From positions 1 to 39,776 of the forward strand of contig JAUIJD010000040.1 in the NCBI GenBank assembly GCA_030431475.1: a stretch of DNA of 39,776 bases. The letters run 5' to 3'. The position numbers were made by a program, and so were the translations under genes. Positions 6,588 to 39,047 of this stretch are shown here, in pieces. The notes under the pieces were generated by a model. It saw only the letters and a program-made list of their open reading frames with translations, was not told where the DNA came from and ran no database searches. Numbering within the stretch: position 1 is the stretch's first letter; the number at the start of each line of letters is the position of its first letter. This DNA is from Verrucomicrobiia bacterium. GTDB taxonomy: Bacteria; Verrucomicrobiota; Verrucomicrobiia; Verrucomicrobiales; Akkermansiaceae.

Positions 6588-6610
6588 ATTTCGCACCCGC
6601 TCGGGGTGTT
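6588..6610 (-). promoter_or_regulatory. shared AACA-N14-GAAAT box upstream of operon B
   Basis: On the minus strand AACA (6610-6607) is followed after 14 bases by GAAAT (6592-6588), 54 nt before the GTG of the first operon B sulfatase. It is the same two-part element found before six other transcription units here, except that the fourth base is A rather than G. The spacing resembles a promoter with ECF-like -35 and -10 elements; this reading is inference. Confidence 0.5.
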
Positions 6611-6622
6611 GCCGCCCCGCAA

Positions 6623-7282
6623 CTACAGGAAGTCCCGGATCGTATGCATCCTGACCCGGCCCTTGCCCGCGCCGTTGTAGAGGAACACCAATCCCCGGGT
6701 CTTCTCCCTCAGGGGCCAGTTGCTCGAGAAGAAGGGACGCCACTTTTCCCGGGGGCGGATGTAGAGGCTGGCATGGCAGAGTTCGGGTCCCTTGTCCGCC
6801 TTGGGTTTGATCACGACCTCGTCGGCGGGTTTCAATCCGAACTTCACGCCGCCGACTTCCCCGGCGATCTCCTGTCGTGCCAGATTGAGGAAGTAGATCT
6901 CGCCGTCCCCGAAGTGCTTCGGGCCGTCCTTGAGGCTGACGACGTGGAAGCCGTCCTCGTTGCGCTTGCCCTTTCGCAACAGGATCAGGATCTGGCGGCC
7001 GGTGCCGGTGGACTCCGCTTCTCCCCAGGTTTCGAAGCCGCGCTCGCCATCGGCTCCCTGCATCCGGCGGCCGAAACGCCACGTGGCCTGGCTCGGAACG
7101 GACACGGGGTCGGAGAGGCGGTTCGACGGCGGATCGACCTCGACGACGCTGTCGCCGACCTGAAGCTCGATCGGACCGGCGTCCTTGACGCGGGGAAAGG
7201 CAAGCAAGCGGAGGTCGGTCTGCTGCGCCTGCTGGGCCGGGGCCGAGGCAGTGAGGAGGAGAAGGAACGCGAGAGTCTTCAT
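6623..7282 (-). CDS. hypothetical secreted protein, partner of the giant pseudopilin
   Basis: 219-aa protein of unknown function. The ATG at 7282 yields a signal peptide (MKTLAFLLLLTASAPAQ) with cleavage near AQQAQQ; the open frame upstream lies inside the neighbouring gene and lacks signal features. No catalytic motif is recognised; the body alternates short beta-strand-like stretches with charged turns. It starts 11 nt after the stop of the 1214-aa PilX-like protein and is surely cotranscribed with it, so the two probably work together in an envelope or export function. No strong terminator separates it from operon B, so readthrough into the sulfatases is possible. Confidence 0.8.
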   Translation of the reverse strand: MKTLAFLLLLTASAPAQQAQQTDLRLLAFPRVKDAGPIELQVGDSVVEVDPPSNRLSDPVSVPSQATWRFGRRMQGADGERGFETWGEAESTGTGRQILILLRKGKRNEDGFHVVSLKDGPKHFGDGEIYFLNLARQEIAGEVGGVKFGLKPADEVVIKPKADKGPELCHASLYIRPREKWRPFFSSNWPLREKTRGLVFLYNGAGKGRVRMHTIRDFL

Positions 7283-7293
7283 GGGTGGACGGA

Positions 7294-10200
7294 TCAGATC
7301 TCGGAGGCCTGCAGGTAGCGGAAGCTGACGATCCGGAAGCTGCGGCCGAACCGTTCGTTGACGTCGGACGTCAGTTCGGACTGCTTGAGATGGGGAGCGT
7401 CCGACGGATCCGCATACTCGGGGAAGCGCTGGACCACCGCTTCGCACCAGGCGCGCGCCTCGACATCGCCCGAGGCATCCAGCGAGTCGCCGTAGGTGCG
7501 GATCACGAAGGTGTCGCCCCGCGGGGTGAGCTGCGCGGACAGTCCACGGAGGAGGTCCGCCTGGTCGACGTAGGCCGCGCTGCCGTAGGCGACCGGTCCT
7601 TCAAGCGCCTCGGGGAATTCGGGACTCATGTCGGCGGTCTCCTGGTCGCCAAGGGTTCGGCGGTCGCTTCGATGACCGGCGTTGATCGGAACGTCCGGGT
7701 TGTCCAGCGCGGCCTGCAGCGCACCCTTGACCGCGAGGTCCTTGTTCGAGGCATCGAGCCGGCGGTTGACGAACTCGGACAGCGAGAGGAACGGGCCGCG
7801 CTTGCGGACCTCGTCCACCATGGCTTCGGCGAGCGCGTCGATTTCGTCGTCTCCGAGTTCCCGCCATCCGGTCCACTGGTCCGGCTCGGAAGGGTCGTCG
7901 GTCGAGCCGGTCCATGGTGCTCCATTGGGCAGCGTGAACGAGGAGACGGGAGCACCCTCGGCGACGCCGGTGTCCGGCTCCGATCCCGAAAGCGCGGACT
8001 CCGCTTCGAGGAAGGCGACGGGCTTCCCGCGCAGGCTGGAGAAGACGGCCCGCCAGGCATCGACGGAGGTGGAGTTGACGTTGAACGGGCCCTCGACGAG
8101 GAGGTGGGAGGAAAGTCGGTCGATTCCGTCGAAGTTGGCCTCGCCGCGGTCGAAGTAGGAGGACAGGGTCGACTCGCTGAGGTCGGCGACGTGGGGGAGG
8201 AAGCGGGAATTCAGCAAGCTCCCCTCGCCGAAGAAGAACTCGGAAGCGACCTGCTGGGCGGTTCCGCGGCGATCGCGTCCGAAGGCCTGGGAGCGGGAGT
8301 CCGTGACCGATGAGAAGAAGTATTCGTCCCACAGCGCCTTGTTCGCGAGGTAGGAGTGATCGGCGAAATGTTCACGCGTGGGCCGGCGGGTGTCCTCGGT
8401 GTAGTAGGCGAGCCACGTTCCAAAGGCGGCGTCCGGGGCGAGGTGCGGGTGGGCGTAGGAGTTGCCGATGGCCTGCACGGTGTGCGGAAGCAGTCCTCCC
8501 TGCCCGCTTGCCGTGGTTTCCTGGAAGTTGTTGGAGGTTTGCGACGCCCCCGGACCGAGGTAGGCGTCGGCGAGACTGTAGCCTCCGAGTTGGGCATGGC
8601 TCAGCGCGGCGATCGAGATCGGAGGCGCGACCGGCACCTCCTGTTGGACGATGTGGGTGGCCCCGGACTCGGCGGTGTAGCCGCCGCCGAAGTAGCCGTT
8701 GTTCGAGCGGTCGATGCTGACATTCGCCTCGAAGGCGGAGTTCACGTCCTCGACCCACCAGTTCCAGCCGTGCTGGTAGAGGCCGTCCCGGTCGTCGCGG
8801 TCGATCATCACCCGTCCGGTGACCGGACTCGAGTGAAGGAAGGGGCGGGAAGGAAACCGCCGGCCCGCGTAGGCGCCGAAGTTGTCATCTTCGGCGGTTT
8901 CGCAGCCCGCCGCGAGGTTCACGAGAAGGAACGGAACCGGACCGGACAGGATCTCACGACCCGCCTTCGCCTCGTATTCGATCGAGCTGCTGCCGTCGGG
9001 CATGCCGAGCTCCATCACCCGCCGGTTGAAATCGCTCTTCGCGCCGGACATGCGGCTGATGAGCTGGAAATGCCGTGCCATCCAGTTCTTCGCACCACCC
9101 GCGCTCGACTGTCGATTGAAGAACTGGAGGGCGCTGCCGTTGGCGAGATCGACGGTCTCGATCGGTTCGATCCGGAACGAGATGCGATCGCCCGAGCTGA
9201 AGGTGAGGGCGCCATCGTTCCCTCCGTTGGGAGGCTCGATGTGCTGGGCGTTCTGGCTGCGGTCCGAGCGCTTGAGCTGGATGAAGGTCTCGGGGTTCCA
9301 GCCCGGCTGCACCTCGAGTTCGTTCTTGTAGGTGTCCGAGTTCCGAAGCTCGTCGAGGCTGTGGTTGGCCAGTGAGAAGACCCGGACCTGTCCCGGCTCG
9401 AAGACCACGGGACGGCTGCCGGAGAAGAAGACCGTGAAGCCGGTGTCCCGGTCGCCGGTGGCGGCGCCGTTCGACAGCCATGCGAGGGAGGTCGGGGTGC
9501 TGGAGGTGTAACCGTCGCCCTCCTTGGTCCAGCGGATGGCCATGGGCAGGTTGAAGAAGCGGAACTGGGTGGCGGTCGAAGCCCCCAGGTTCATGGCGAG
9601 CGGGACGTTGTAGGGATTCCAGAGGGTGATGGCAGGGCTGATCCCGATGTTGAGCTTGTGGGTGTCCCGGTTGCCGGGGTTGTTGCGTTTCTCCTGCGAC
9701 GTCCGGGGCTCGGCGATCATGCTCAGGAGGAACTGCACCTTGATGGGGACGGGGAGGCGGTAGAGGTTGGTGTAGCCGCGGAGGAACTCCTCTCCTCCGC
9801 GATTGAAGTCGAGGTTCTTGATCTGCATGCCCCGGCGAAGCTCCCGGGAAGAGAAGGCGACCTCGTCGCGGTAGAGCTGGTAATAGGCCGCGAGGTCCTG
9901 AATCGGGACCCGGTCGTCGTTGCGGCCGAAGCGGTAGAGCATGAACGAGTCGTCGGTTTCCCGCTGATCGATGGGACGGCTCAAGAGCCCGCTGAGGTCG
10001 CGCTTGAGTCCTCCCTCACGGACGTCGCAGAGCAGGCCGATTGAGTGGGGCGTGAGGTCGTGGAAGGACTGCCTGGCGAGCGTGCCGTCGACCTCGTCGA
10101 GAAGCCCGAGGGTTTCGCGCGTGCTGGCGAGGGAAAGGGCGCCCGATGGATCCAGCTCGGAAAAGGCGTCGACAACCTGGATGCCCGCGTTGCCCGGCGC

Positions 10201-10938
10201 CTGATGGCGGGCGAGGCGAGTGGCGGTGGAGTCCGGTGGCGTGACCTCGTAGGAATCGTCCAGCAGCCGGGCCTTCAAGCTCTCGTCGCCGACCCACCAC
10301 GCCATCCGTCCTTCGCGTCGGCCGGAAGCCGTGATGTTCTGCACGCCCGCGACCACGTGATCGGTCGTCGCGGCGCTGCCAAGGGTTCCTTCGCCGACCA
10401 GCTTGATGCTCGTTTCGGTGCCTTCCGGCGCCGGCGTCCCATCAAGCGGCGCGTTCGAGGACGACTCCAGGGAGCGGCGCAGTTCGGGGTCGGTCGAGAC
10501 CAGCCACCCGCGGAAGTGATCCCGTCGCCCGTCCTCGTAGCTGGGATGCATGCCTTCGTTCAGGCGCCCCGGGATGGTGGCATGATCGCTCGGCTCGTCG
10601 TTGCCGCTCGGTTCTCCGTCGCCGGCCTTCCAGGAGTCCCAGACGCCGGTCCAGCGGCCGTGGCGGGCCTTCGCGTCGGCGATGTCCCCGGGGGCGGTGA
10701 TCCGCTGGTCGGGACCGGCGTGCTTCTGGAGCTCACCCAGTGCGATCGTCAGGGCGAGGCGGGCATTGGCGCGGGCCTCGGCGATCGCCTCGGTCCGGTT
10801 GCTGCTGCGCAGGCTGACCGACGACAATCCCAGGAGGCCGACGGCGAGAAGTGCCAGCAGCACCATCAGGGAAATGGTGATGATCAGGGCGAAGCCGGGC
10901 CGGTATCGCCGGAAGGCGGATCGGTTTGGGATTTTCAT
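7294..10938 (-). CDS. giant PilX/pseudopilin-like protein (Verru_Chthon cassette A-like)
   Basis: 1214-aa envelope protein. The ATG at 10938 gives a short basic leader followed by PGFALIITISLMVLLALL (residues 14-31), which looks like a prepilin peptidase site (G15|F16) plus a hydrophobic N-terminal helix. As in PilX/GspK-type minor pilins, position +5 of the mature protein is not Glu. The very long remainder has no recognised enzyme motif. The layout matches proteins common in Verrucomicrobia and annotated as Verru_Chthon cassette protein A or PilX N-terminal proteins; the other cassette members (B-D) are not visible here. It shares an operon with the 219-aa secreted protein downstream. Its upstream region carries a copy of the shared promoter-like box. 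Function unknown. Confidence 0.85.
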   Translation of the reverse strand: MKIPNRSAFRRYRPGFALIITISLMVLLALLAVGLLGLSSVSLRSSNRTEAIAEARANARLALTIALGELQKHAGPDQRITAPGDIADAKARHGRWTGVWDSWKAGDGEPSGNDEPSDHATIPGRLNEGMHPSYEDGRRDHFRGWLVSTDPELRRSLESSSNAPLDGTPAPEGTETSIKLVGEGTLGSAATTDHVVAGVQNITASGRREGRMAWWVGDESLKARLLDDSYEVTPPDSTATRLARHQAPGNAGIQVVDAFSELDPSGALSLASTRETLGLLDEVDGTLARQSFHDLTPHSIGLLCDVREGGLKRDLSGLLSRPIDQRETDDSFMLYRFGRNDDRVPIQDLAAYYQLYRDEVAFSSRELRRGMQIKNLDFNRGGEEFLRGYTNLYRLPVPIKVQFLLSMIAEPRTSQEKRNNPGNRDTHKLNIGISPAITLWNPYNVPLAMNLGASTATQFRFFNLPMAIRWTKEGDGYTSSTPTSLAWLSNGAATGDRDTGFTVFFSGSRPVVFEPGQVRVFSLANHSLDELRNSDTYKNELEVQPGWNPETFIQLKRSDRSQNAQHIEPPNGGNDGALTFSSGDRISFRIEPIETVDLANGSALQFFNRQSSAGGAKNWMARHFQLISRMSGAKSDFNRRVMELGMPDGSSSIEYEAKAGREILSGPVPFLLVNLAAGCETAEDDNFGAYAGRRFPSRPFLHSSPVTGRVMIDRDDRDGLYQHGWNWWVEDVNSAFEANVSIDRSNNGYFGGGYTAESGATHIVQQEVPVAPPISIAALSHAQLGGYSLADAYLGPGASQTSNNFQETTASGQGGLLPHTVQAIGNSYAHPHLAPDAAFGTWLAYYTEDTRRPTREHFADHSYLANKALWDEYFFSSVTDSRSQAFGRDRRGTAQQVASEFFFGEGSLLNSRFLPHVADLSESTLSSYFDRGEANFDGIDRLSSHLLVEGPFNVNSTSVDAWRAVFSSLRGKPVAFLEAESALSGSEPDTGVAEGAPVSSFTLPNGAPWTGSTDDPSEPDQWTGWRELGDDEIDALAEAMVDEVRKRGPFLSLSEFVNRRLDASNKDLAVKGALQAALDNPDVPINAGHRSDRRTLGDQETADMSPEFPEALEGPVAYGSAAYVDQADLLRGLSAQLTPRGDTFVIRTYGDSLDASGDVEARAWCEAVVQRFPEYADPSDAPHLKQSELTSDVNERFGRSFRIVSFRYLQASEI

Positions 10939-10995
10939 GAAGTGGGGTTTTGGGCGACCCCCCGGGCATGGCCCGACCAAGGTCGTTACCATGTA

Positions 10996-11018
10996 ATTTC
11001 ACATGGGTCGAAAACGTT
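10996..11018 (-). promoter_or_regulatory. shared AACG-N14-GAAAT box upstream of the pseudopilin gene
   Basis: AACG (11018-11015), 14 bases, then GAAAT (11000-10996) on the minus strand, 58 nt before the ATG. The first half sits in the near-palindrome GAAACGTTTTCG, and the same AACGTTTTCGA stretch recurs in the box before the plus-strand ECF sigma gene. Apart from this box and the terminator at 11201-11235, the 329-base region 10939-11267 holds nothing I can identify. Confidence 0.55.
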
Positions 11019-11235: not shown

Positions 11236-11267
11236 CGGGAACGGCGGTGCCGCCGCTTGATGACGAA

Positions 11268-14200
11268 TCAGGACTCCGTGACCTCGACCCGCACGAACAC
11301 GCGCGGCGCGGTGTCGGGGGCGACGGTGACGGTGACTTCGACGGTCTCGTAGTCGGGATCGGCGTCCGGGGTCGTGGTTCCCGGAGTGAGTGTCACCGTC
11401 ACGCCACCTTCCGCGACGCCGCTGTCGGTCCAGGTCGACAGATCGGCCGACCACTCGTAGTTGACCGCCGAACCGGTGGCATCGACCGGGCGCAGGTGGG
11501 TGAAGGTGAAGGTGCCGGGTCCGGTCTGGGTGAGAGCGGACAGCGGCGAGCCCAGTCCTTCGGCGACGGTGGGATCGCTGTTGTAGAAGTACCACTCGAA
11601 GCCGTTGACCACGCCGTCGTTGTCGTCGTCGTCGCCGAAGCCACCGGTGAGTCCCGGGAAGTCGGCGGCCCAGGTGATGTAGGCGGATGCGGCTCCGGCG
11701 GCGGTCAGGGTGACCGAGTCCGCCGTGCCATCGGTGCCCGGGTCGCCCACGGCATCCCGCAGGTCGTCCTGATACTCGATGGTGAACTGATTGACGCCGA
11801 TGGTCACCGTGGAGCCGTTGGTCAGTCCGGCGAACTCACCGGTGAGCGTCGAGGTCGTCACGCCGATGTCGTCGAAGTAGTCGACGATGACGATCTTGGT
11901 GCCGAGCGGCAGGACGACCGGCGCGCCGGCGAGGTCGGTGCCTGCGAGGGTCACGCCGGTTCCGATGTCCACCGGGAAGTCGGCATCGAGAAGGTCGGCC
12001 GAGGGGACGCTCGAATCGATCTCGATCTCGAAGGTCGAGGTGTCCTCGAAGGTGACACCGCCGCCGACGTTGAGCGTGCCGACGCTGGCCCCGGGAGCGA
12101 GGAACCCGCCGCCGCTGACGGTCACCCCACTTTCGGTGCTGCCCGTGCCGCCGAGCGTGGTGGCGGTGTCGACGGTATAGCCGCCGCCTCCGGTATGGGT
12201 GCCGTTGAGCAGGGTGGTGCTGCTTCCGTCGAGGAAGGTTGTGCCGGTGTAGGTGTTGGCGCCGGCGAGGGTGACCGTGCCGGCATCAAAGCTGGCGGCG
12301 ACCGACAGATTTCCGGTTCCGACGACGTCCGCGGTGACGAGGAAGTCGCCGTTGTCTTCTCCTTCCATGGCGTCGAAAACGACGTTGATCGGCTCGCCGC
12401 TTCCATCCATGTCGATGGTCCCGCTGACGGTGAAGCTGATGCCGTCACCACTGTAGTTGCCGATGCCGCGGAGACCGCCCACCGGAACGATGGTGCCGGA
12501 GAGTTCGAAGGGATTGTCGCCTCCGAGCCGGAACCCACCGCCGTAGATCTCGACGTCATTCGGGATGTTCAGTCCGGGCACCGAGGTGCGGAGCTGGGCG
12601 CCGCGGGACTCGATCAGACCGCTGCCGACGTGGGCGGCGTCGCTGATCACGACGATACCCCTCTGGTTGCCGACGGCCAGGGTGTCATTGATGGTGGAGG
12701 AGGCGCCGGATCCGAGGATGAAGTTCCCGGTGAAGGTGTTCGGCGGTCCGTCGAAGACCACGGTGCCGTCATTGGTGGCGGCGGAGACGTTGCCGTCGCC
12801 ACTGATCTGCGTGGAATGCGTGATCACGGATGCGGGATCCGCCGGGTGGAGATCGAAGGTGCCGGGGGCGTTGACGACGACCGGGGCATCGACCGAGCCG
12901 ATGATGGACAGATCGCCGAGCTGGCCGCCGATGCGCAGCGTGCCGTCGTTGATGGTGATGGTGCCGGTCGAGGTGCCGGTGCCACGCAGGACCGTGCGTG
13001 CGGTGCCGTTCTTGGTGATGCCGCCGGTGCCGCTGATGTCGGAATCGATCGTATGATCGACCAGTCCCGAGAAGATCAGGTCATTCCCCTGGAGGTCGAG
13101 AGTCGTACCGTCGTCGGCATTGAGAGCGCCGACCGTAACCCCGCCCGTCGAGTCGGTGAGCTGCAGGGTCATGGTGCCGCTCAGGGTACCGTCGTCATCG
13201 CCGTAGTCGCCGTCGTTGACGATGATGGTGCCGGCCGGATCGACGATGGTGGCGGCCTCGGAGATGGTCCGGAAGGCCGTGTAGCCGTAGATGGCATTCT
13301 GGTCGCCGGCGGTGACCTGGTCGGCGTCGGTCACGTCGTCGCCGCGACCTTCGGTGAAGTCGTCATCGACATACACCACGGTGGGGACGGTGGTGGCGAT
13401 CAGGATGGTGCCGGTGGTCGAGCCCGCCGAGGTCTGGTCGTCGATGGAAACATCGAGGATGGCGAAAGGCTCGGTGCCGGGGATGAACTCAAGGTCGGCC
13501 AGGGCCGTGTTGAGCGAAGCGATCCCGACGGGGCCGGTCCAGACGCCGTTCGAGTAGGTCTCGCCGTTGCCGCTGTCGGCCGAGAGCGAGCCCTCGACGC
13601 CGTCGGCGGTCCAGTTGCGGATCGTCACCGTTGCGGTGAGGGTCTCGGGGGCCCCGGCGGTGGCGCTGATGGTGCCGTCGGTGGCGTTCCAGAACCGGCA
13701 GGAGGTGATTGCCGCGGTGCCGTCGGCGAGGCTGACGTAGCTATCCGTGAGAAACGGGCCGGCCGTGGTGGAAAGGCCGCCACGTTGGCCGACGACATCA
13801 TCGATCTCACCGAAGCTGATATCGGGATTGCCGTTCCAGTTCTCGATTCCTCCGCGGTTGGCCAGCGCCTCGGTCGTTGGAGCATCGCCGTTCAGGGAGT
13901 ACTCGATGGCATCGAGTGAGAACCGGAGTGCCAGGGAAACCCGCTGATCTGCCAGTAGGGCGCCGCTGGAGAGGGGGACGCAAACGGCGTTGCCGATCCA
14001 GTCGGGGTTGTTGAGCCCGCCGGGGCTGGCGGCGCCGTTGGTGTTCATCTTCGAGATGAAGTAAAGGGCTCCGTCGATGAGATAGATGCCGCTGCCGTTC
14101 GAGGTGCCGCCGATGTCCCAGACGTGGCGGTAGTTGCCACCGCCGACGACATCCGCCGTGCGGGGGGTGAAGACCAGATCGAGAGAGAAACCGGCCGCAT

Positions 14201-17028: not shown

Positions 17029-20000
17029 CTAAGGCGCCAGCTCGATCAGGTTCGCCCGGAGGAACTGCCGACTCTCGGCCAATGGCCAGGCAGCGGTGGG
17101 CGAGAGGATCACCGTGGGGGTGCCGGATGGGGGATTCAATGCGCCGGCACTTCGCCGGGTCTCTTCCTCGGTGAGAGGCGTCCACGCCCCTTGCAGCGTT
17201 TCCGATTGCTCCAGTCGCCATGAGTGGGTCGGGAGCAGGGGTTCGGGGAGTTCGAAGCGTGGTTCGAAGCCGGGATCGAGGGGGATGATGACGCCGGCCG
17301 GAGCACGCGTGGGCAGGCGGGGATCGTACTGCAGCAGGTACTCCGTGTGGTTGTCGAAGATGTCTCCGTCGGGATTCGCCGTGTCGCCCGAAATCTCCAC
17401 ATCCAGGAGCTCCGCTGGCGTGAAGTGGAGCTCCCGCCAGTCTTCGTAGGTGGGGAAGACCCGAACCGTGACGGTGGCATTCAACGGGCTTCCGCCGTCG
17501 TCGGCGGTGAGCGTGTAGGTCGTGTCGCTGGTCGGCGATGCCGACACGGTGCCGATGCCGTTGAAGGCGAGCAGGGTGACATCGCCGACTCCCTGGTCGA
17601 TCTCGATCGAGGTCGCACCCGGGCAGTCCCAGTGGAGGTCGATGCGGTCTCCGGCGAGGATGAAGCGCTCGGAGGCGGTGAAGGACTCGATCGACACGCC
17701 CGGGATGGCGCTCGGGGTTTGGCCGGTCAGCTCAACCCAGGTGTCCGTTTCCGGGGATCCGTAGCGGACGGTGTAGGTGCCTCCGGGGGTGAACACGTGG
17801 GGACGGAACGCCGGCGTCCAGCTCCGAATCGAATACACCAGCGAATCGTCCGACTCGTCGATGATCTCGAAGACGGGATGGACGAAGGAAGGATCCTCGA
17901 CGCGCGGCAGGTAGGCGACGGCGTCGCGTCCGTAGTTGTCGGTCTGGCGCACGGTCACCGGCCAGTCGTCGAACTGGGAGGGCTCCGGCGAGGAGAAGTC
18001 GGCGTCGATGCGGTAGGCCTCGATGGTGACGTCGCGGGTCCGCTTGTTGAAACGGACGATGCCGAAGCCGGAGGACTTGTCGGCGAGGAGATCGACGCTG
18101 CCGAACGTGTTGCCGCCCCAAACGACCGGGTTGCCGATGGCGACGATGGTCTGCGGTGATCCGTGATCGGAGGTGTAGCGACCGAGATAGGGGACGCCGT
18201 TGAAGGTCGGGTTTTCGTCGAAGGCATCCTGCGGGTAATCGGGAAACCCCGCGACCTTGGTCGATGCGGTGGCGGCATCGTTGGCGGGATCCCATTTCCG
18301 GGGGAAGCCGACCGCGGTGGCCGGGCTGGAGTAGGCGAGAAACGCATCCTCGTGGGCATCGACCCCGATGTGCGAGAGGGTCGGCAGGTGGTTGTCGCCG
18401 GCGATCATGACGGGGAAGGCTTTTCGCAGCAGCCGGACCGCCTCGTTGCGGGCGGGGTTCGGCCAGCCGTTCGCGTCCTGATCCGCCACGATGGGCGCGA
18501 ACTCGGCCCCGCCGCCGGCGTGGGTGTGGCTTTGTTCGAAGACGGTCTGGCAGAGGGTTGCCTTGAAATCGGCACCCGCCCAGTCGCGCGCCCAGTCGCG
18601 GATGAAGTCGTGCTGGCGCTCGCTGAGCAGCTCGGCGTCGTTGATGGTCGGAAACTCCGCGCCGCCAACCTCATTGGGCCCGGTCTTGAACTTGCGGTCC
18701 TCGAGGATGGCGAAGGAGACGCGGCCGTAGAGGAAGTCGGTGTAGTACACCTCGATCCCGCGATCGACGGTGGTGAAGTCGTAGGGGTCGGGCAGGTGGG
18801 CGGCCTGCACGCGCTGGGTGGCATTGACGAAGTCGCGCTCCATCAGGTAGCCGCCGTTGGCGAGGCCGCCCTGCAGCGCCTGGCCGCCGGAGCCCCACAG
18901 GTTGGCCATCCAGTTGTCGTGGTCATCGACGATCGCGATCGAGGGGCGGTCGGCCATGACGTCGCGGAAGGTCCAGCCGAACATGAACCACTTGCGCAGC
19001 ATGTCGAGGCGGGCCCGCTCGAAGGGCGCCTCGATCTTCGGCGTGTAGGCGTAGTCGTTTTCGTAGAACTGGTCGCCGGAGAAGAAAAGGACGTCGGGGT
19101 CGGTCCGGACGATGCCCTCCACGATTTCCTGGTTGGGAAAGTTCAGGTCGCGCATGCAGGCCAGCGCGGCGATGGAGACGGATTCTTGATCCACGGGATC
19201 GGCACGGACGAGGCCCTCGCGGTGGACGTCGCTGCCGGTGTCGCCGAACAGGTAGGTGACCCGGATCGGGATGTCGGTGGTGTGGGGCCAGTTGTCGATC
19301 CGGAACAGGGCGAGGTCGGTGGTCTGCTCGATCGGAGCGGTATCGACCTGGGTCCAGCCCGAGCCGGTGTCGATCTCCAGCCGCGCGGTGCGGTTCTCGT
19401 CGATCCCGAGGGGCGCGAACTGGGCCGAGAGTTTCAGCGTCCCCTTGCTCAGCGTGTACTGGGTCCAGAGGATGGGGCCCCAGTGCTGGTCGTCCGATCC
19501 GGCGAGGTCGGTGCCGGTGTGGCTCCAGTTCCGGAAGGCGGTCACCGGCGAGCCCCAGGGGGCGGAGTTGTTGTTGATGGACGGGTGGTCGGAAAGGAGC
19601 AGCAGGTTGCCGACGATCTCGCTCGAGGGGATGGACTTCGAAACGCTGGCGAGCACGGCCGAGTTCGTCGGGTCGAGTTGCTCGAGCGTGACGTCGTGGT
19701 TGGGCCCGTTGGGAGTCAGCACCAGGCGCAGTTTCTGCCATGCCCCGAGGGGGAAGTCGGCGGCGACGCTTTGGTCATCGAGGACGAGGGTGCCGTCGGT
19801 ATCGAGCCCGGCATGGAAGCCGAAGGACTGGATGATGTTGTGCCGGTAGTCGGTCTTGATGGCGCCCTTGGCGGCGAAACGGAAACCGGCGAGTCCGTCG
19901 AAGCTCGCATCGAGGCGGGCGAGCTCGACGGTCATGTCGAGCGAGCTGGTCGGCTGGAGTTGTCGGGAGAGGAGATCGATCCGGCGGTTGTTGCCGGCGG

Positions 20001-31392: not shown

Positions 31393-34300
31393 TCAGCCGT
31401 TGGTGTTCATCGGCTCCGTCGCCGGCGGCGTTTCTTCGGTCAAAGTCTCGGGGTCGCGGATGAGCAGGGTGGCGAGGTCGTGGATGCCCCGGTTCTGCCA
31501 GGCGAAGTAGGGAACCGCGGTGAACTCGACCGGAGCGTCTCCGTCGAGGAGTCGGCCGCGTCCCCGCAGCATCGTGACACCGTCGAGAAGGTTGGCCTCG
31601 ACGGCTTCGACCGGAGCATCGTCGGGCAGGACGAATCGGCGAACCGGAAACTCATGATCGACGCCTTCGAGGCAGTAGAGGAGAGGGCCGCGCATCAGGG
31701 CGACCCGCCCTCGATTCGCGGGGATGCGGTCATCGGTAACGACCCGCCGGATGGATGGCGGAAGATCGAGCGTGAGGCGATCTCCCGCGGTGACGTCGAG
31801 AGAGATGTAGCCGAGTGGGTCGATGGCGACCTGGATCCTCCGGCCATTGACCGAAACGGCCGGGCCCGATGGAGCCCCATCATCGTCGTAGCGGTAGGGC
31901 CCGAGTGGCACCGGACCATCGGACCGCAGCCAGAACGGGACGCGGAGTCGCAGCGTGAGGTCGTTTCCGGGAATCTCGAGGACCTGGATCTCGCATCGTC
32001 CCTTCCAGGGCAATTCGTTCCGCTGCCTGAGACGGACGGTGCCCCTTCCGAGCGGGGTCTTCAGTTCGCCGCCGACGTACTGGTTCACCGTGATGGCCCT
32101 GCCGTCGGTGGCGTAGATCCAGCGTCCCAGGCCGCCGAGAAACCCCGGCACCTTCGCCGGGCAGCAGAAGAGGTAGTGGGTGCGCAGACCGTGATGCGGG
32201 TTGTTTCGCTTCTCGGTGCCGAGGTTGAGCTTGTTGGAATAGAAGAACTTGCCGCCGTCGAGGCTGATGCCCGAGAGGGCGGAGTTGTAGCTCTCGAGTT
32301 CGACGAGGTCGGCGTGGCGGGCGTGCCCGGTGAGCAGGTTGAGGCGATGGTGCCACTGGCCCTGGGCGATGTTGGCGCAGGTTTCCGAGTAGGTGGCGAG
32401 GAGAGGGAGATCGTCGTCGTGCCCGTGTTGCTCGGCCCGGCTGCCGTTGCCGGTGCCGCCGTGGAGATACATCTTGTGGCCGGTGATGTTCTTCCACAGG
32501 GAGTCCAGTGCTCCTCCGAGGTCCCCGGCGCCGGTGGCGCGCACCACGTCGGTGGCGCCCGCGTAGATGTAGGCGGTGCGGACGGCGTGCCCATAGGCCT
32601 TGCGCTGCTCGTGGAGCGGCTTGCGGTTCTCGCCCTTGCCGAGGTCCGGGGGGCGGGAGAAGACGACGTGGCGGCTGAAGCGCTCGGCGAGTGAGAGATA
32701 CGCCGGGTCGTGGGTCACTTCGTAGAGCTTCATCAACCCGATCTCGATCTGCGGGTGGTCGGCGTAGCCGCGGATCCGGTCGATGCCCTCACCGAAAACC
32801 TCGTCGATGTGGTCGGCGAATCGCACGGCACCGTCGAGAAAGCGGCGATCGCCGGTGGCGCGGTGCCAGGCGACGGCGGCTTCGAAAAAGTGGCCGGCGC
32901 AGTAGAGCTGGGAATAGGCGTAGGGCCAGCGCTCGGCGAGGGAAGTCCAGCGGTCTTCGGGGCCGAAGCCGAAGGTCCGGATCTTGTGGCGGTTCGACTT
33001 CGTGTCGGCGGGCGCCCGGGGGTCGGCGCTCGGAAGCATGTACTGCGTGTGCAGGTAGCCGTTTTCGTCCTGTGCGGCGAGAATGTCGCCGATGTAGCCC
33101 TCGACGCGCTTCCGCAGCTCCGGCGCGGGGCGGAAGGCCAGCGAGTACGCCGTGGCCTCGATGAGCTTGTAAACATCGGAGTCGGGCGCGTTGTAGAGTC
33201 TCAGGCGACCATCCTTGCGACCCGCGACGATGCGGAAATTGTCGATCTTTCCCTGTTCCTCAGCCGTGTCGAAGAGGCCGGGGAGGGTGCGCTCTTGGAG
33301 GCGTTCGAGCCGAGGGTTCCAGAAAGAATCGTCGATGCGCACCCGGTGGAAGGGGATCTCACGCAGCCGGGAGCGGGGATAGACGGACGAGGTCGCAGGG
33401 TCGGCGAAGACCGGCCCGGGATGGTTGATCTCGGTCGCGCCCCGGTCGGCACCGGGGAACTCGCCACGGACCAGTTTGGCATTCTGGTCGGACTGGTGGA
33501 GGGGTTGGCGGTCGGGGGTCGGGTTCGCCGGGACGCTGTCGCCGGTCTGTTCCTTCCACCGGTCGAGCAGGGAGCGCATCGTGGCGAGGGTTTCGGCGTG
33601 GCCGGGCTCCCCGGCGAGATTCTTGAACTGGTGCGGGTCGTCGCGGACGTTGAAGAGCATCTCGGCAGGCTGCGGGGCCTGGGTGAGCAGTGCCTGGGCG
33701 TCCGTGAGCTTTCCGGCCTCGGCCTGCTCCCAGAGCTCGCGGACGGCGGCGAAGCGGAAGGACGACGATTCGCCGGCGACGTTGTGGCGCTCCGGCCAGG
33801 CGTTCCAGATGTAGAGGTGGTCGCCGGTGCGGACCATGCGGGCGTGGTTCTGATAGACGTGCCAGTTGCGTTCGGCGAAGGCGACGGTGCGGGTCACGGC
33901 CTCCGGATCCCCGAGCACTTTCGCGAAGCTGGCGCCCTGGATGCTCGGCGGCTTCTCGACACCGGCGAGTTCGAGGAGGGTCGCGGACAGATCGATGGCC
34001 GAGACGATGGACTCGCTGCGGCCGGTGGCCACGTTCGGACCGCTGACGAGCAGCGGCGTCTGGATGCCGCTCTCGTAGAGGTAGGTCTTGCAGCGGGGGA
34101 AGGGGCGGCCGTTGTCGGAGCAGTAGATCACATAAGTGCTGTCGGCGATGCCCTGGCGCTCGAGTTCGGCTTGGAGCACTCCGAGAAAGTGGTCGGTGCG
34201 GCTGACCTCGTGGTAGTAGCCGGCGAGCTCTTGGCGCGTGCCGGGGCCGTCGGCCAGCATCGGCGGGACCGGCAGCGCGGCGGCATCGTATTCCGGCGCC

Positions 34301-34818
34301 TTGTCGTTGACCTGAAAGCCGCGATGGGCGTCGTGCGAGGCGAACCAGCAGAAGAAGGGCCTGTCCTTCGGGCGCTCCCGCAGGTGCTTGACCCATTTCT
34401 CACTGCCGGCCGGATGGCTGTCGGATGAGACCTCGAAGCCGAGCTGCTTCGGCTTCGCCATGTGGTTCTTGCCTGAGAGCACGGTATGGTAGCCGGCGTC
34501 GCGGAGGCATTGGACGAAGGTCGTCTGGCCGGCCGGGAGCGAGGTGTGGAGCTCCGGGGCTCCGGTGTTGTGGGGATAGCGGCCGGTGATGATGGAACAG
34601 CGGCTCGGCGAGCAGGAGGAGATGGTCAGGTAGGCATTGTCGAAGACCAGACCCCGCGAGGCCATCCGGTCAAGGTTCGGCGTCCTGACGAACTCGTTGC
34701 CGTAGGGCCCGAGATCATCCGGCGAGATGTCGTCGGTGATGACGAAGATGAAGTTCGGTCGCTTTTCGGCTCCGACGAGCGGAGCGATGATCAGGGTAAG
34801 GAGAAGGAGGAATCGCAT
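31393..34818 (-). CDS. secreted sulfatase-GH127 fusion enzyme
   Basis: 1141-aa exported bifunctional enzyme in one uninterrupted frame from the ATG at 34818 (signal peptide MRFLLLLTLIIAPLVGA). Residues about 20-430 are an S1 sulfatase of the SGSH-like branch: TDD metal pair (28-30), CSPSR (69-73, formylglycine Cys69), SGKNHMA and YCSDNGRPFP. A linker of about 60 residues leads to a GH127 beta-L-arabinofuranosidase domain (about 490-1110). Its catalytic set is complete: Glu796 in AEQHG, exactly 16 residues before Glu812 in SETC, with Cys814 and the Cys885-Cys886 pair in LFCCPAK; this matches the HypBA1 order of acid/base Glu and Cys3-Glu zinc site. Last gene of operon A, 8 nt after the preceding sulfatase. 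Both domains look active, suggesting desulfation coupled to arabinofuranose release. Confidence 0.9.
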   Translation of the reverse strand: MRFLLLLTLIIAPLVGAEKRPNFIFVITDDISPDDLGPYGNEFVRTPNLDRMASRGLVFDNAYLTISSCSPSRCSIITGRYPHNTGAPELHTSLPAGQTTFVQCLRDAGYHTVLSGKNHMAKPKQLGFEVSSDSHPAGSEKWVKHLRERPKDRPFFCWFASHDAHRGFQVNDKAPEYDAAALPVPPMLADGPGTRQELAGYYHEVSRTDHFLGVLQAELERQGIADSTYVIYCSDNGRPFPRCKTYLYESGIQTPLLVSGPNVATGRSESIVSAIDLSATLLELAGVEKPPSIQGASFAKVLGDPEAVTRTVAFAERNWHVYQNHARMVRTGDHLYIWNAWPERHNVAGESSSFRFAAVRELWEQAEAGKLTDAQALLTQAPQPAEMLFNVRDDPHQFKNLAGEPGHAETLATMRSLLDRWKEQTGDSVPANPTPDRQPLHQSDQNAKLVRGEFPGADRGATEINHPGPVFADPATSSVYPRSRLREIPFHRVRIDDSFWNPRLERLQERTLPGLFDTAEEQGKIDNFRIVAGRKDGRLRLYNAPDSDVYKLIEATAYSLAFRPAPELRKRVEGYIGDILAAQDENGYLHTQYMLPSADPRAPADTKSNRHKIRTFGFGPEDRWTSLAERWPYAYSQLYCAGHFFEAAVAWHRATGDRRFLDGAVRFADHIDEVFGEGIDRIRGYADHPQIEIGLMKLYEVTHDPAYLSLAERFSRHVVFSRPPDLGKGENRKPLHEQRKAYGHAVRTAYIYAGATDVVRATGAGDLGGALDSLWKNITGHKMYLHGGTGNGSRAEQHGHDDDLPLLATYSETCANIAQGQWHHRLNLLTGHARHADLVELESYNSALSGISLDGGKFFYSNKLNLGTEKRNNPHHGLRTHYLFCCPAKVPGFLGGLGRWIYATDGRAITVNQYVGGELKTPLGRGTVRLRQRNELPWKGRCEIQVLEIPGNDLTLRLRVPFWLRSDGPVPLGPYRYDDDGAPSGPAVSVNGRRIQVAIDPLGYISLDVTAGDRLTLDLPPSIRRVVTDDRIPANRGRVALMRGPLLYCLEGVDHEFPVRRFVLPDDAPVEAVEANLLDGVTMLRGRGRLLDGDAPVEFTAVPYFAWQNRGIHDLATLLIRDPETLTEETPPATEPMNTNG

Positions 34819-34826
34819 GGCCGGGG

Positions 34827-36221
34827 TCAGGGTTGTCCGTGGAGGTGCTTGCCTTCGCGCGACGCCTTCAAGGCTTTCGGCGTGTCGACTGGTGCCCCCG
34901 GATCCTGCTGATTCTCGAGCCACGCATCGAGGGCCGCCGACAGTCGCTGAAGGTCACCGGATCGAGTGGGATCCGAGGCGAGATTGCGCAGGTTGTGGCG
35001 GTCGCCCGACAGCTCGTAGAGCTCCTCTTTCGGGCGGGTCATGTAGCGGGCGGCGAGTTTGCAGACCTTCGGCTGGTTCAGCGGGTTCGCGCCCAGCCAA
35101 CTCGCCCAGTAGTCGTTGTGCTCCCTGCCGGGTCCCATCACGTGTTTCTCCACATATAGGGCGTCCGGCTTGAGGTTGCGGATGTAGCGGTGGGTGCCGT
35201 CGGTGATCGAACGGATCGGGTAGGCCGGGCCTTCAGGCAGGTTGTTGTGCAGGGAGTAGGCAAACTCGCGATGACGGTCGCGCTCTCCGCGGAGGACGCC
35301 GGCAAACGAGCGGCCGTCGAAACGCTCCGGGTCGGGCTTGCCGCCGGCGAGATCGATCAGGGTCGGGGTGACATCGGCATACTGGACAAGCGCCGGCGTC
35401 CGTTGTCCGACGGGTGTCTTTTCCGGCCAACGGGCGATGAGGGCGGTGTGGACGCCGGACTCCCAGTTGGTCCACTTGCAGCCGGGAAACTGGGCACCCT
35501 GTTCGGAACTGAAGAGGACCAAGGTGTCGTCGGCGCGGCCTGTCTTCTCCAGCACGTCGAGGATTTCACCAACCTGGGAATCCATGTAGGTGATCTCGGC
35601 GAGATAGCGGGAAAAGTTCTCGCGGGTGGCGGCGGTGTCGGCGAGGTAGGGGGGCAGCTTGAGTCGTCGCGGCGGGTAGGCCGAGGTGTCGCCCATGACC
35701 CACGGCACGTGCGGCTCGACCAGCGCGACGACCAGGCAGAAGGGCGGGTCGGCGGCCATGTAGTCGCGGATCCCGGCGAGGTCGTGCGGCCGAGTCGGGT
35801 TGCGGACGCAGTTGTCGTCGAATCCGGGAACCTGGTCGAAGGGAAAGGCCTTCTGCGGCACCACGTGGCTCTTGCCGGCGAGTCCGACGCGGTAGCCGAG
35901 TGGCTTCAGGAAGTGGGGTAGGCTCTTCGTGTCCGGACGGCTCGCCGAGTGGTTCCAGGCGGCGCCGTTGCGCAGGGGAAACTGTCCGCTGTAGAGCTCC
36001 GAGCGGCAGGGCTGGCACATCGCCATCGAGACGTAGGCCTTGTCGAAGACGAGGCTTTCCTTCGCGAGTCGGTCGAGGTTCGGAGTCTTCGCATTCTCGC
36101 CGCCGTAGAGCGGCAGGTCGGTGACCGTGCAGTCGTCGGCGAGGATGATGAGGAAGTTCGGCTTCGCGGCGGCGGAGACGAGCGTGGTGCAGAGCAGGAC
36201 GAGGAGGGTGAGGGGGTTCAT
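34827..36221 (-). CDS. secreted S1 sulfatase with CQPCR signature (SGSH-like)
   Basis: 464-aa sulfatase; the ATG at 36221 starts the signal peptide MNPLTLLVLLCTTLVSAAA. Metal ligands ADD are at 28-30 and the formylglycine motif CQPCR at 69-73. The first Cys is the modification site; the fourth position being Cys is less usual. GKSHV follows. At the late metal site, where most S1 enzymes have SDNG or SDHG, this protein has SEQGAQFPG (Glu240-Gln241). The QFP..KW context resembles a branch of SGSH-like sulfatases in environmental bacteria, so this is probably a lineage feature, not decay. Third gene of operon A: 11 nt after the preceding sulfatase and 8 nt before the fusion enzyme. Confidence 0.9.
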   Translation of the reverse strand: MNPLTLLVLLCTTLVSAAAKPNFLIILADDCTVTDLPLYGGENAKTPNLDRLAKESLVFDKAYVSMAMCQPCRSELYSGQFPLRNGAAWNHSASRPDTKSLPHFLKPLGYRVGLAGKSHVVPQKAFPFDQVPGFDDNCVRNPTRPHDLAGIRDYMAADPPFCLVVALVEPHVPWVMGDTSAYPPRRLKLPPYLADTAATRENFSRYLAEITYMDSQVGEILDVLEKTGRADDTLVLFSSEQGAQFPGCKWTNWESGVHTALIARWPEKTPVGQRTPALVQYADVTPTLIDLAGGKPDPERFDGRSFAGVLRGERDRHREFAYSLHNNLPEGPAYPIRSITDGTHRYIRNLKPDALYVEKHVMGPGREHNDYWASWLGANPLNQPKVCKLAARYMTRPKEELYELSGDRHNLRNLASDPTRSGDLQRLSAALDAWLENQQDPGAPVDTPKALKASREGKHLHGQP

Positions 36222-36232
36222 GGATCGACGTG

Positions 36233-37624
36233 TCAGTAGTGAGCCTTCATTCGCTGCCACCATTCGAGAAGGCGCTTCTTCATGTCGGAGGCCCGGTCGG
36301 GGTGCTCGGTGGCGAGGTTGTGTTTCTCGCCGGGGTCCTTGATCAGGTGATGGAGCCGGAGCGATGAGCCGTTGGGATTGCAGAGCAGCTTCCAGTCGCC
36401 GTCGCGCATCACCAGCGACGGGCTGCGGTGTTCCTTCTTGCCGGGCTGGATCGAGCCGAAGACGCCGTATTCCCAGAAGATCGGTTCGGCGCGCCCGCCC
36501 GGCTTTCCGAGAAGCACCGACGAGCGGTCTTCTCCGTCGTAGGTCTTGCCATCCGGTGGCGGAATGCCGGCGAGCTTCGCCAGGGTCGGTTGCAGGTCGA
36601 AGGCGGCGACGATGCTCTGGTCGTCGGTCGTTCCGGATTCAATGCGGCCCGGCCAGCGGACGAGGAAGGGCATGCGGATGCCACCTTCGTAGAGGGACCA
36701 TTTCCGGCCGAAGAAGGGGCCGGTGAAGCCGGGCGGCTCGAGCCCCTGCTCGTAGTAGCGGGGCCAGTCGGTCGGTCCGTTGTCGGAGGTAAAGACGACG
36801 ATCGTCTGCCGGTCGAGGCTCTCCTGTTCAAGGTGGTCGAGCAGGCGGCCGATCTGGCGGTCCATCTCGGTGAGCACGGCGAGAAACTTCCGCTCTTCCG
36901 GGTTGTCGGTCACGGCGGCGAACTTCGCGGTGGCCTCTCGGGTCGGGAAGAACCCGTCGTGGACGTCGTTCGGAAACCACTCGAGGTAGAACGGTCGATC
37001 CTTGTGCCGCGAGATGAAGTCGATCGCCTTGTCGGTGTAGATCCGCGAGGTCTCGCGCTTCGGCGCCTTGTCGATCTTGCCGCGGCCGATCCGGATGCTG
37101 GCATCACCGGCGGCCGACTCGGGAAAGATCAGGCGGTCGCCGAGTCCCTCGAAGGAGACGTAGCTTTCATCGAAGCCGTATTCGGTCGGCAGCGGGGCGT
37201 CATCGACATCCCTTCCGCCGCCGAGGTGCCATTTTCCGAAGTGCGCGGTCGCGTAGCCGGCATCCTTGAAGACCTGTGCGGTATGGATGGCTTCGGGGTC
37301 CAGCCAGTTGGCCATCTGCCGGTTCTTCTGGGCCTTGCGCGAGGCGAGGAAGGAATGGATGCGCCAGCGTTGCTGATACTGGCCGGTCGCGAGTGCGGTG
37401 CGGGAGGCCGAGCAGATGGGGGAGTTGACGTAGAAGTTCGTCAACTTCAGTCCGTCGGTGGCGAGTGAGTCGATGTGGGGTGTCTCGACCAGCGGGTTTC
37501 CGAAACAGGAGGGATCGGCGTAGCCCATGTCGTCGATGAACAGAACGAGCACATTGGGTTTTCGCCCGGCCAGACCCGGGAGGGCGAGCAAGGGCAGGAG
37601 CAGGAGAAGTCGAAGGAAGGCCAT
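36233..37624 (-). CDS. secreted S1 sulfatase with CSASR signature
   Basis: 463-aa sulfatase with signal peptide MAFLRLLLLLPLLALPGLAG from the ATG at 37624. The IDD metal pair is at 30-32. The active-site signature reads CSASR (71-75): Ala replaces the usual Pro, a variant still within the (C/S)x(P/A)xR sulfatase pattern. HFGKWHLGGG and TSDNGPTDW are conserved, and the C-terminal region (RDGDWKLLCNP, HLIKDPGEKHNL) is typical of the arylsulfatase A/GalNAc-6-sulfatase group. Second gene of operon A, starting 14 nt after the glycosidase stop. Substrate unknown. Confidence 0.92.
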   Translation of the reverse strand: MAFLRLLLLLPLLALPGLAGRKPNVLVLFIDDMGYADPSCFGNPLVETPHIDSLATDGLKLTNFYVNSPICSASRTALATGQYQQRWRIHSFLASRKAQKNRQMANWLDPEAIHTAQVFKDAGYATAHFGKWHLGGGRDVDDAPLPTEYGFDESYVSFEGLGDRLIFPESAAGDASIRIGRGKIDKAPKRETSRIYTDKAIDFISRHKDRPFYLEWFPNDVHDGFFPTREATAKFAAVTDNPEERKFLAVLTEMDRQIGRLLDHLEQESLDRQTIVVFTSDNGPTDWPRYYEQGLEPPGFTGPFFGRKWSLYEGGIRMPFLVRWPGRIESGTTDDQSIVAAFDLQPTLAKLAGIPPPDGKTYDGEDRSSVLLGKPGGRAEPIFWEYGVFGSIQPGKKEHRSPSLVMRDGDWKLLCNPNGSSLRLHHLIKDPGEKHNLATEHPDRASDMKKRLLEWWQRMKAHY

Positions 37625-37638
37625 GGGTTGGATCGAGG

Positions 37639-38898
37639 CTACTCTCGGACGGGGCCGGGTGTTTCACGAGGTGCGGCTTGCGTCTGCTTCCGGCCGGTCA
37701 GTTGGCGGAAGATCTCGATCTCCCCTTCGTCGTACGGCGTGTGGTCGGGGCGGAAGAGATCGTGGAACCAGACCTCGGGCTCGGGAAGGGGATCGCCGGG
37801 ACGGACGACCTTGCCGGCCTTGCGCTCCTGCGTCACGTTCCGCGGCTTTCCCCGGGCGTTGCGCCGGCTGTCCCAGTTCCAGATGGTGGCCGATTTGCCG
37901 GAGACAAAGCCCCAGTTGACGGCACCGGCGTCGAGTTCCTTCATCACCGGGAGGCAGGTCTCCACGGTGCTGCCCTTGTCGCGGGCGAGCCATTCGGTGA
38001 CCATCACGGGTCGTCCGTCCTTCTGGTATTCCAGAATCTCCTTCCGCAGGCGGGGAGCGCCGCCGCCGTAGCTGTGAATCGAGTGGAGGTCGCTGTTCGC
38101 GCGGTTGATGGCGATGTTCCTCTTTCCCACCGATCCGGAGGAGTTGGACATCACGGGCTGCGACGGGGCGACTTCGCGCGCCCAGACCCAGGAGTCATGC
38201 ACCAGGCGCTTCGAGTGATCGCCGATGCCGCCCTTCGGGTTGGTTCCTTCCATCGGTTCGCCGTCCGAGTTCCCGCGGCCGGGTTCGTTGTAGAGCTCCC
38301 ACATCAGCACGCGGGGGTCGTCCTTGAAACGGCGCATGGTATTCTGGACGTAGCCCTTGAGCCGGGCGGCCTCCTCCGGTGTCGCTTTTCCGTTCCCGTA
38401 ACGCACCGCAAGGGCGCGGCCCGGCGAGTTGACCCAGCCGGAATTGTGGTAGGCCATCACCGGCAGCGGTTGCTTGCCGAGGCGCGGTCGCGGGAAATGG
38501 CAGTCGTCGAAGAACACGAACCACGGCCGGATGTCGTGCTCCTTGCAGGCGTCGAGGAAACGATCCATCCGCTGGTAGAGCCCCTGCTCGTCATCGGCCC
38601 ACACGAGGTCGTGGAGGTAGACGCGGAGGGTATTCATGCCGACCGACTCGGCGAGCGCCAGCTCCTTGCGGATGGTCGGCAGGTCGAAGGTGGAGGCCTG
38701 CCACATCTCGATCTGGTTGATCGCGGTGGCCGGGTAGTAGTTGCAGCCGACGAGCCACGGTTGCCGGTCATACCAGGCGTTGATCTTCTCCACTGACCAG
38801 CGGCCGGGCACCGGGTCCGGGAGGTCGGCATCCGCGGCTTCGAGAGGCGGCAGAAGGCAGAGGGCGCCGATGAGGGCGAAGGAGGGGGCGGATTTCAT
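37639..38898 (-). CDS. secreted clan GH-A (GH5-like) glycosidase, first gene of operon A
   Basis: 419-aa exported TIM-barrel glycosidase from the ATG at 38898 (signal peptide MKSAPSFALIGALCLLPPLEA). Catalytic residues are visible: acid/base Glu205 in WELYNEPG and nucleophile Glu302 in VTEWLARD, with MNTLRVYLHDLVW at the early strands. It is a paralog of the C-terminal domain of the fusion enzyme at 22800-24857 but has no GH43-like propeller. Being first in a four-gene operon with three sulfatase domains and a GH127 domain, it is probably the backbone- or branch-cleaving member of this glycan pathway. Upstream lies a shared AACG-N14-GAAAT box, and the plus-strand ECF sigma gene diverges from the same intergenic region. 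Confidence 0.87.
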   Translation of the reverse strand: MKSAPSFALIGALCLLPPLEAADADLPDPVPGRWSVEKINAWYDRQPWLVGCNYYPATAINQIEMWQASTFDLPTIRKELALAESVGMNTLRVYLHDLVWADDEQGLYQRMDRFLDACKEHDIRPWFVFFDDCHFPRPRLGKQPLPVMAYHNSGWVNSPGRALAVRYGNGKATPEEAARLKGYVQNTMRRFKDDPRVLMWELYNEPGRGNSDGEPMEGTNPKGGIGDHSKRLVHDSWVWAREVAPSQPVMSNSSGSVGKRNIAINRANSDLHSIHSYGGGAPRLRKEILEYQKDGRPVMVTEWLARDKGSTVETCLPVMKELDAGAVNWGFVSGKSATIWNWDSRRNARGKPRNVTQERKAGKVVRPGDPLPEPEVWFHDLFRPDHTPYDEGEIEIFRQLTGRKQTQAAPRETPGPVRE

Positions 38899-38930
38899 GA
38901 TGGGCGCGGGAGCCGACGGGTCATGAAGGG

Positions 38931-38953
38931 ATTTCGTGGATGGGGAATCCGTT
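38931..38953 (-). promoter_or_regulatory. shared AACG-N14-GAAAT box upstream of operon A
   Basis: AACG (38953-38950), 14 bases, then GAAAT (38935-38931) on the minus strand, 33 nt before the ATG of the first operon A gene. It is an exact match to both core elements. It lies back-to-back with the copy serving the plus-strand ECF sigma gene in the same 160-base divergent region. Confidence 0.6.
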
Positions 38954-39025
38954 GCGGGATGGTCGTGGCAGCGGTCCCGGATCTGGCGTAGAAGTCGCTC
39001 CAAGGCGGAATCCAGTTCTTCAGCG

Positions 39026-39047
39026 AACGTTTTCGATCCGCAGAAAT
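39026..39047 (+). promoter_or_regulatory. shared AACG-N13-GAAAT box upstream of the plus-strand ECF sigma gene
   Basis: AACG (39026-39029), 13 bases, then GAAAT (39043-39047), 12 bases before the GTG start chosen for the sigma gene. The stretch AACGTTTTCGA is identical to that in the pseudopilin gene box. If it is a promoter, the transcript would be nearly leaderless; if not, it could be an operator. Autoregulation by this sigma factor is an inference. Confidence 0.45.

Follow-up and report, generated by a model that had tools for sequence, protein, structure and literature searches.

We analyzed a 39,776-nucleotide (nt) stretch of DNA (hereafter, the window), which is one entire contig (C82; JAUIJD010000040.1, assembly GCA_030431475.1) of the 4.73-Mb, 109-contig genome of a Verrucomicrobiia bacterium in the family Akkermansiaceae. 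A two-part box, AACR-N13-15-GARAT, precedes seven transcription units in this window, and we consider it probable that the box is an autoregulated promoter read by a TIGR02989-family extracytoplasmic function (ECF) sigma factor, in all likelihood the one encoded at 39059, and that it controls a cluster of genes for sulfatases and surface proteins. This reading is based on the sites themselves, on their dependence on place and spacing, on related boxes at orthologous sigma genes, and on the gene neighborhood.

Identification of the Box in the Window

The original prediction had listed seven boxes, five of them with exactly 14 bases between the two halves. An exact scan of both strands of the window for AACR-N13-15-GARAT recovered all seven in the same places, and the spacer was indeed 14 in five of them, the remaining two spacers being 15 (16633-16610) and 13 (39026-39047). 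The sites, all of which also entered the count of upstream regions described below, are as follows.

6610-6588, − strand: AACA-N14-GAAAT, before operon B
11018-10996, − strand: AACG-N14-GAAAT, before the Verru_Chthon A-like (pseudopilin-type) gene
16633-16610, − strand: AACG-N15-GAAAT, before the gene for the 1749-amino acid (aa) autotransporter-repeat protein
21820-21798, − strand: AACG-N14-GAGAT, before the PhoD-domain protein gene
22758-22736, − strand: AACG-N14-GAAAT, before the PEP-CTERM gene
38953-38931, − strand: AACG-N14-GAAAT, before operon A, divergent from the sigma promoter
39026-39047, + strand: AACG-N13-GAAAT, before the sigma gene and putatively its autoregulatory promoter, with related boxes at clade orthologs

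The scan also gave an eighth match that had not been listed (12569-12547, AACA-N14-GAGAT), which lies within the gene for the 1749-aa protein. The window contains 41 copies of GAAAT (22 on the + strand and 19 on the − strand), of which six belong to boxes. About two dozen other copies had been described as lacking AACR at the proper distance; the lack itself held for every one of them (0/35 at spacings of 13–15), and the number given was too low.

Genes were called with a simple codon-usage caller written for this analysis and trained on the fetched DNA. For the relatives, the caller was mostly retrained on their own DNA, and one reading of Haloferula luteola (part of the C46 and C13 loci described below) used it without such retraining. 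The caller overlooked the sigma gene, which was added by hand before the spacing, upstream, dyad, and genome-wide classification counts. With these calls, the distance from the box end to the operon start was 53 nt for operon B and 32 nt for operon A, and the distance from the box end to the gene start was 57 nt for the Verru_Chthon A-like gene, 92 nt for the 1749-aa gene, 83 nt for the PhoD gene, and 64 nt for the PEP-CTERM gene. The sigma gene likely begins with a GTG located 11 nt past the box end, a start that was placed by hand.

Dependence on Spacing and Position

The spacing was analyzed in a 619-kb sample of the organism's own genome, which included the window and 579 kb outside it and contained 455 called genes. 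With spacers of 13–15, seven matches lay no more than 300 nt upstream of a gene called on the same strand, and all seven were in the window. For the 23 remaining spacer lengths in the range 4–29, the total was 12 such matches, one of them in the window. Counted by transcription unit, the box occurred in 7 of the 11 upstream regions of the window and in none of the 295 elsewhere in the sample, and Fisher's p for this comparison, 7e-12, is optimistic because the pattern came from the window.

Because the pattern had been picked on the window, we made an unguided scan for dyads of two 4-mers, corrected for composition, in which AACG-N14..16-AAAT ranked top in the window set. None of 300 sets of 11 upstream regions drawn at random matched the window's corrected score. 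The raw maximum dyad coverage was rejected as an unguided test, since it is uninformative in a GC-rich genome (the coverage of 5/11 is unremarkable, since at least 5 was reached by 50 of 150 random sets), and the corrected version was used in its place. Within the window, the box is meaningful, and it depends on a spacing of 13–15 and on an upstream position.

Recurrence at Orthologous Sigma Genes

The 190-aa protein encoded at 39059-39631 matches TIGR02989 (Sig-70_gvs1, the Rhodopirellula/Verrucomicrobium family) over residues 21–178 with 129.6 bits, above the curated cutoff of 124.55, and the cutoff is also passed by the sigma factors of H. luteola C46 and Luteolibacter marinus. Pfam reported region 2 and did not report region 4 in the window sigma; region 4 is sub-cutoff in the H. 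luteola C46 ortholog. The stop codon of the sigma gene overlaps the start of a partner gene (ATGA) whose frame remains open to the contig end, and the 49 residues of this partner are similar to the N-terminal parts of the proteins encoded downstream of the sigma gene in relatives, where the same overlap is found. Both complete partners tested from relatives contain FecR and LamG domains, and a hydrophobic segment was recognized by eye.

Judged by the sigma gene, the closest named relatives are L. marinus, Luteolibacter pohnpeiensis, and H. luteola, all Verrucomicrobiota. A tree of 58 sigma proteins placed the window sigma in a six-member clade (100/98) with three sigma factors of H. luteola and one each of L. 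marinus and L. pohnpeiensis. The exact pattern was present within 150 nt upstream of two of the five other clade members (H. luteola C46 and C13), compared with 1 of the 52 sigma genes outside the clade. When the second half was widened to [AG]A[ACG]AT, the count rose to 4 of 5 vs. the same 1 of 52, with a value of 0.005 from shuffles of the six clade upstreams; both this pattern and the −10 variants were recognized only after the loci had been read.

In L. marinus, AACG-N14-GACAT lies before the orthologous sigma gene and before a divergent gene for an exported-looking 576-aa protein, and AACG-N15-GACAT lies before a sulfatase gene; all three boxes read AACGTTTC...GACAT. A search of the 6.2-Mb L. 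marinus genome for AACGTTN{11,13}GAMAT gave five matches, three of which were these sigma-locus boxes and two of which were intragenic, and no more boxes were found outside genes in the adjoining 20 kb on one side. At the C3 locus of H. luteola, which holds the fifth of these clade members, AACG-N13-CAAAT is common to the sigma gene and its divergent PEP-CTERM-like gene, and the row at C46 consists of the box, the sigma gene, a FecR-LamG gene, and a sulfatase fragment. The second gene of operon A encodes a product with 37% identity to the L. marinus sulfatase and, over 140 residues, 51% identity to the fragment at H. luteola C46. The claim that the boxes are ECF promoters of one regulon, possibly run by the 39059 sigma factor, is thus supported by relatives that were not used in defining the pattern, both by the exact pattern at clade sigma genes and by the three L. 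marinus units.

The architecture is also seen at other ECF sigma genes. In the upstream regions of the 57 other sigma homologs, AAC[CG]-Nn-GNNAT, a pattern set after reading these upstreams and counted with orthologs taken separately, peaks at n = 14 with 13 sequences, as against 0–3 sequences at each of the remaining spacings in the range 6–25 and 5 sequences at n = 14 on the reverse strand.

Gene Content of the Window

The genes of the boxed units, together with the sigma factor and its partner, are listed below with the evidence for each.

124..6534, − strand: operon B, three sulfatases and GH127 (Pfam; gene calls)
7294..10938, − strand: 1214-aa protein with an N-terminus like Verru_Chthon cassette protein A (NCBIfam, 28.5 bits, far under the cutoff of 332.3)
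11268..16517, − strand: 1749-aa PATR/autotransporter-repeat protein (Pfam on a longer 1809-aa frame; TIGR02601)
17029..21714, − strand: 1561-aa protein with a PhoD-like phosphatase domain (Pfam)
21889..22671, − strand: PEP-CTERM-type protein of 260 aa (weak NCBIfam PEP-CTERM matches, all sub-cutoff; C-terminus VPEPS...RRRR)
31393..38898, − strand: operon A, a GH5-like protein, two sulfatases, and a sulfatase-GH127 fusion (Pfam; gene calls)
39059..39631, + strand: ECF sigma factor TIGR02989 (Sig-70_gvs1), likely GTG start (Pfam Sigma70_r2; TIGR02989; tree)
39628..39774, + strand: FecR/LamG-type partner (putative anti-sigma), first 49 codons, ended by the contig end (translation; N-termini of relatives' partners)

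No TonB-dependent receptor was found among the window proteins scanned with Pfam. In the 346 nt at 28860-29205, upstream of a gene for a 1279-aa PATR protein, the box is absent, and one frame in this interval resembles, by eye, a degenerate prepilin N-terminus (TLMERMVAIVVPASLIF).

Proposed Mechanism

In the reading that we favor, AAC(G) would be the −35 element and GAAAT the −10 element, with GAGAT as a variant in the window and GACAT or CAAAT in relatives. The 39059 sigma factor would transcribe its own gene and the downstream FecR-LamG-type partner, a putative anti-sigma factor and sensor, and would drive six more units of the 40-kb cluster: the two sulfatase/glycosidase operons and the units for the PEP-CTERM-type, PhoD-domain, autotransporter-repeat, and pseudopilin-like proteins. 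The LamG domain would lie outside the membrane and may sense a glycan, probably a sulfated one or a fragment of one. Until this ligand is met, the FecR-LamG-type protein would hold the sigma factor, and it would then release it, whereupon the freed sigma factor would amplify itself and turn on the degradation and surface genes. Sigma binding, transcription starts, anti-sigma activity, the ligand, and the release step are all predicted parts of this scheme.

Observations That Weigh Against the Proposed Promoter

Beyond the late recognition of the widened pattern and the −10 variants, several observations weigh against this interpretation, among them the behavior of the bare pattern across the genome. 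AACR-N14-GARAT has 145 sites genome-wide. The AACG-N13-15-GAAAT form, all 63 sites of which were classified, is upstream of genes at 5 of 5 sites in the window, and outside it 40 of 58 sites are intragenic, 8 are upstream of genes, and 10 are otherwise intergenic. The original prediction had proposed a comparison of intergenic with intragenic frequency; this check was passed only in part, since 40 of the 63 sites genome-wide are intragenic. The proteins at the eight upstream sites (DUF1287, NUDIX, DUF2383, ferritin-like, multicopper oxidase/cytochrome c, a sub-cutoff integrase match, and two unmatched) share no glycan or surface theme, and whole-genome pattern counts were therefore rejected as a definition of the regulon. 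Since the bare pattern is mostly intragenic, we name no members outside the contig from the pattern alone. One match, AACG-N13-GAAAT, occurs with near-identical surroundings at two of the organism's own contig ends, the end of C33 (L124) and the start of C108 (L157), which suggests that a repeat broke the assembly there.

In the window itself, the box is missing at 4 of the 11 units, namely those of the genes starting at 24857, 28859, 30792, and 31322; the upstream region of the first of these holds just AACA-N14-CACAT. The second half of the box (GAAAT or GAGAT, GACAT in L. marinus, and CAAAT in H. luteola C3) is not a CGT-type −10 core. Moreover, with a GTG 11 nt past the box, the sigma transcript would have a leader of no more than a few bases, provided that the box is used as proposed, which suggests near-leaderless translation, unlike two orthologs in H. 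luteola, where the likely ATG follows the box by 35 nt (C13) and 43 nt (C46).

Among the relatives, AACGTTN{11,13}GAMAT has seven matches in H. luteola and four in strain E54, without clustering at sigma genes. L. pohnpeiensis has AACG-N14-AACAT at its sigma gene and no clear second box. At the C13 and C46 loci of H. luteola, a single box was found at each, at the sigma gene, and nearly all other matches read were intragenic; the exception at C13, an AACG-N14-GAAAT at L193:14163-14185, is intergenic, 23 kb from the sigma gene, and followed by no called gene, and an uncalled gene may follow it. At H. luteola C16, two AACG-N14-GACAT boxes (L192:8387-8409 and 11818-11840) lie 6 nt before the called start of a sulfatase-domain gene and 62 nt before a PEP-CTERM gene, respectively, and no homologous sigma gene was found in the 20 kb read around the pair. 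The two boxes themselves count in favor of the proposed promoter, but the regulon need not be local, and the boxed genes at C16 are possible unlinked members.

In the wider family, de novo two-block Gibbs sampling of the 57 sigma upstreams found no stable −10 part, its outcome varying with the settings. One setting gave AAAcCTTT...CATC, backed mainly by one ortholog group, and wider settings gave an A-rich tract followed by AACGT, with a score of 121 vs. 28–37 in four shuffled sets. The sampling recovered AAC both times and no general −10, and we therefore claim no family-wide −10 consensus. An A-rich tract (GGAAAA-like) is often found 5′ of the AAC element in sigma upstreams and is possibly an UP-like element. 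Another sigma ortholog group (L006, L009–L012, and L016) has a conserved AACCTTTC-like −35 and a GACAT-like element just before the start codon. In its strict form, AACCTTTC-N9-11-GACATC, this arrangement occurs as a single copy in 6 of 18 genomes of the genus and in none of the other 12; four of the six sites adjoin that clade's sigma gene and are the sole copy in those genomes. Judged by this strict pattern, that clade shows no more than autoregulation, and a regulon of several units was accordingly rejected as a general rule.

Alternative Explanations

The alternative that survives best, which we nevertheless consider unlikely, is that the box is an ECF promoter whose cognate sigma factor is another family member, such as the one at 30858-31322 or an unlinked paralog. 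Sigma-profile matches are numerous, with 21 in the organism's own genome and 9 to 36 per genome over 18 genomes of the genus, and the upstreams examined cover 12 of the 20 others in the genome, which leaves room for this explanation and is a further weakness of the case for the 39059 sigma factor; the exact pattern was absent from the 150 nt upstream of all 12. A second TIGR02989 sigma gene (30858-31322, − strand) and a FecR-LamG gene (29206-30792, − strand) do lie after operon A, but this sigma gene is preceded by AACC-N14-GCTAT, which is not the box, and its region 4.2 is interrupted by an in-frame TAG, whereas the FecR-LamG frame that follows is open. This sigma gene is either decaying or the product of an assembly error. 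Related boxes, on the other hand, adjoin members of the clade of the 39059 sigma factor.

It is still less probable that the box is a site for a conventional transcription factor, or some other shared element, rather than a promoter contacted by a sigma factor. The support for the box is wholly computational, four window units lack it, and the start codon of the sigma gene is unusually near it, all of which would suit such a site. However, no palindrome or direct repeat is visible by eye in the box, its constant half is AAC, its architecture with a 14-nt spacer recurs at other ECF sigma genes, and its second half varies by sigma locus.

Finally, it is highly improbable that the box reflects chance combined with selective reading, the eye having settled on a short, degenerate pattern within 40 kb of sequence. 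The choice of the pattern after the window had been seen, the 145 genome-wide AACR-N14-GARAT sites, and the ordinary raw coverage could be cited for this explanation, which is already disfavored by the corrected dyad scan, the complete absence of the box from the other upstream regions of the sample, and the recurrence in L. marinus and H. luteola.

Comparison With Known Systems

According to one source (PMC8103513), the recorded hallmarks of ECF sigma factors are AAC at −35, autoregulation, and cotranscription with the anti-sigma factor. The common −10 core is CGT, a hallmark that was derived from a small subset of ECFs and has since been dropped from the defining features, and the named exceptions to autoregulation include the FecI-like ECFs. 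To find ECF promoters, it is established practice to search the DNA before sigma genes (PMC3817407). The box has AAC as its proposed −35 at near-constant spacing to its proposed −10 and lies upstream of the sigma gene itself, and its position before a putative ECF sigma–anti-sigma operon, the AAC, and the near-constant spacer therefore give it the likeness of an autoregulated ECF promoter. The putative FecR-type partner gene, which overlaps the sigma stop, also recalls known autoregulated sigma/anti-sigma operons. Unlike in those operons, the proposed −10 reads GAAAT, GACAT, or CAAAT instead of CGT, the box is also present on six other units of the cluster, and the relatives' partner has a LamG (lectin-like) domain.

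A common upstream DNA element before exported PEP-CTERM genes is also described for the sigma-54/PrsR regulon of Proteobacteria, where it consists of a sigma-54 −24/−12 site and an activator site and is reported only in Proteobacteria (PMC1569441). The window box differs in being of the ECF type. FecI/FecR cell-surface signaling likewise pairs an ECF sigma factor with a FecR-domain partner; in contrast to that system, the scanned window proteins include no TonB-dependent receptor, the relatives' partner ends in LamG, and autoregulation is likely. In the SigI systems of cellulolytic clostridia, the anti-sigma partners (RsgI) sense carbohydrates. The present system differs from the SigI systems (PMC6056542) in sigma family and phylum, and its candidate sensor is FecR-LamG and its predicted targets are sulfatases and surface proteins.

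In the open-licence literature searched, no promoter or regulon was found described for TIGR02989 sigma factors or for Luteolibacter sigma factors, and what this analysis contributes for the TIGR02989 family is, for one clade, a promoter prediction together with a set of predicted targets. The kind of system, an autoregulated ECF regulon, is known, and this member of it is new as far as these searches show. A more tentative idea, which we think somewhat doubtful, is that each pair of a TIGR02989 sigma factor and a FecR-LamG protein is a private glycan switch that reads its own promoter variant without cross-talk, the −10 letters having diverged with the sigma factor. The AAC and the spacer of about 14 nt would then be common to all, the −10 letters (GAAAT, GACAT, or CAAAT) would differ, and sulfatase, glycosidase, and surface-protein targets would lie nearby; the coupling of the −10 variant to the sigma locus rests on three loci.

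Implications

The appetite of this phylum for sulfated glycans is well known. The cluster brings together a predicted promoter, a sigma factor, a sensor-like partner, and a set of putative targets, and it thereby becomes possible to test directly how polysaccharide degradation is regulated in the phylum, in the named relatives L. marinus and H. luteola as well. If the proposed regulon is real, a single sensor could switch on a whole sugar-degrading and cell-surface program.

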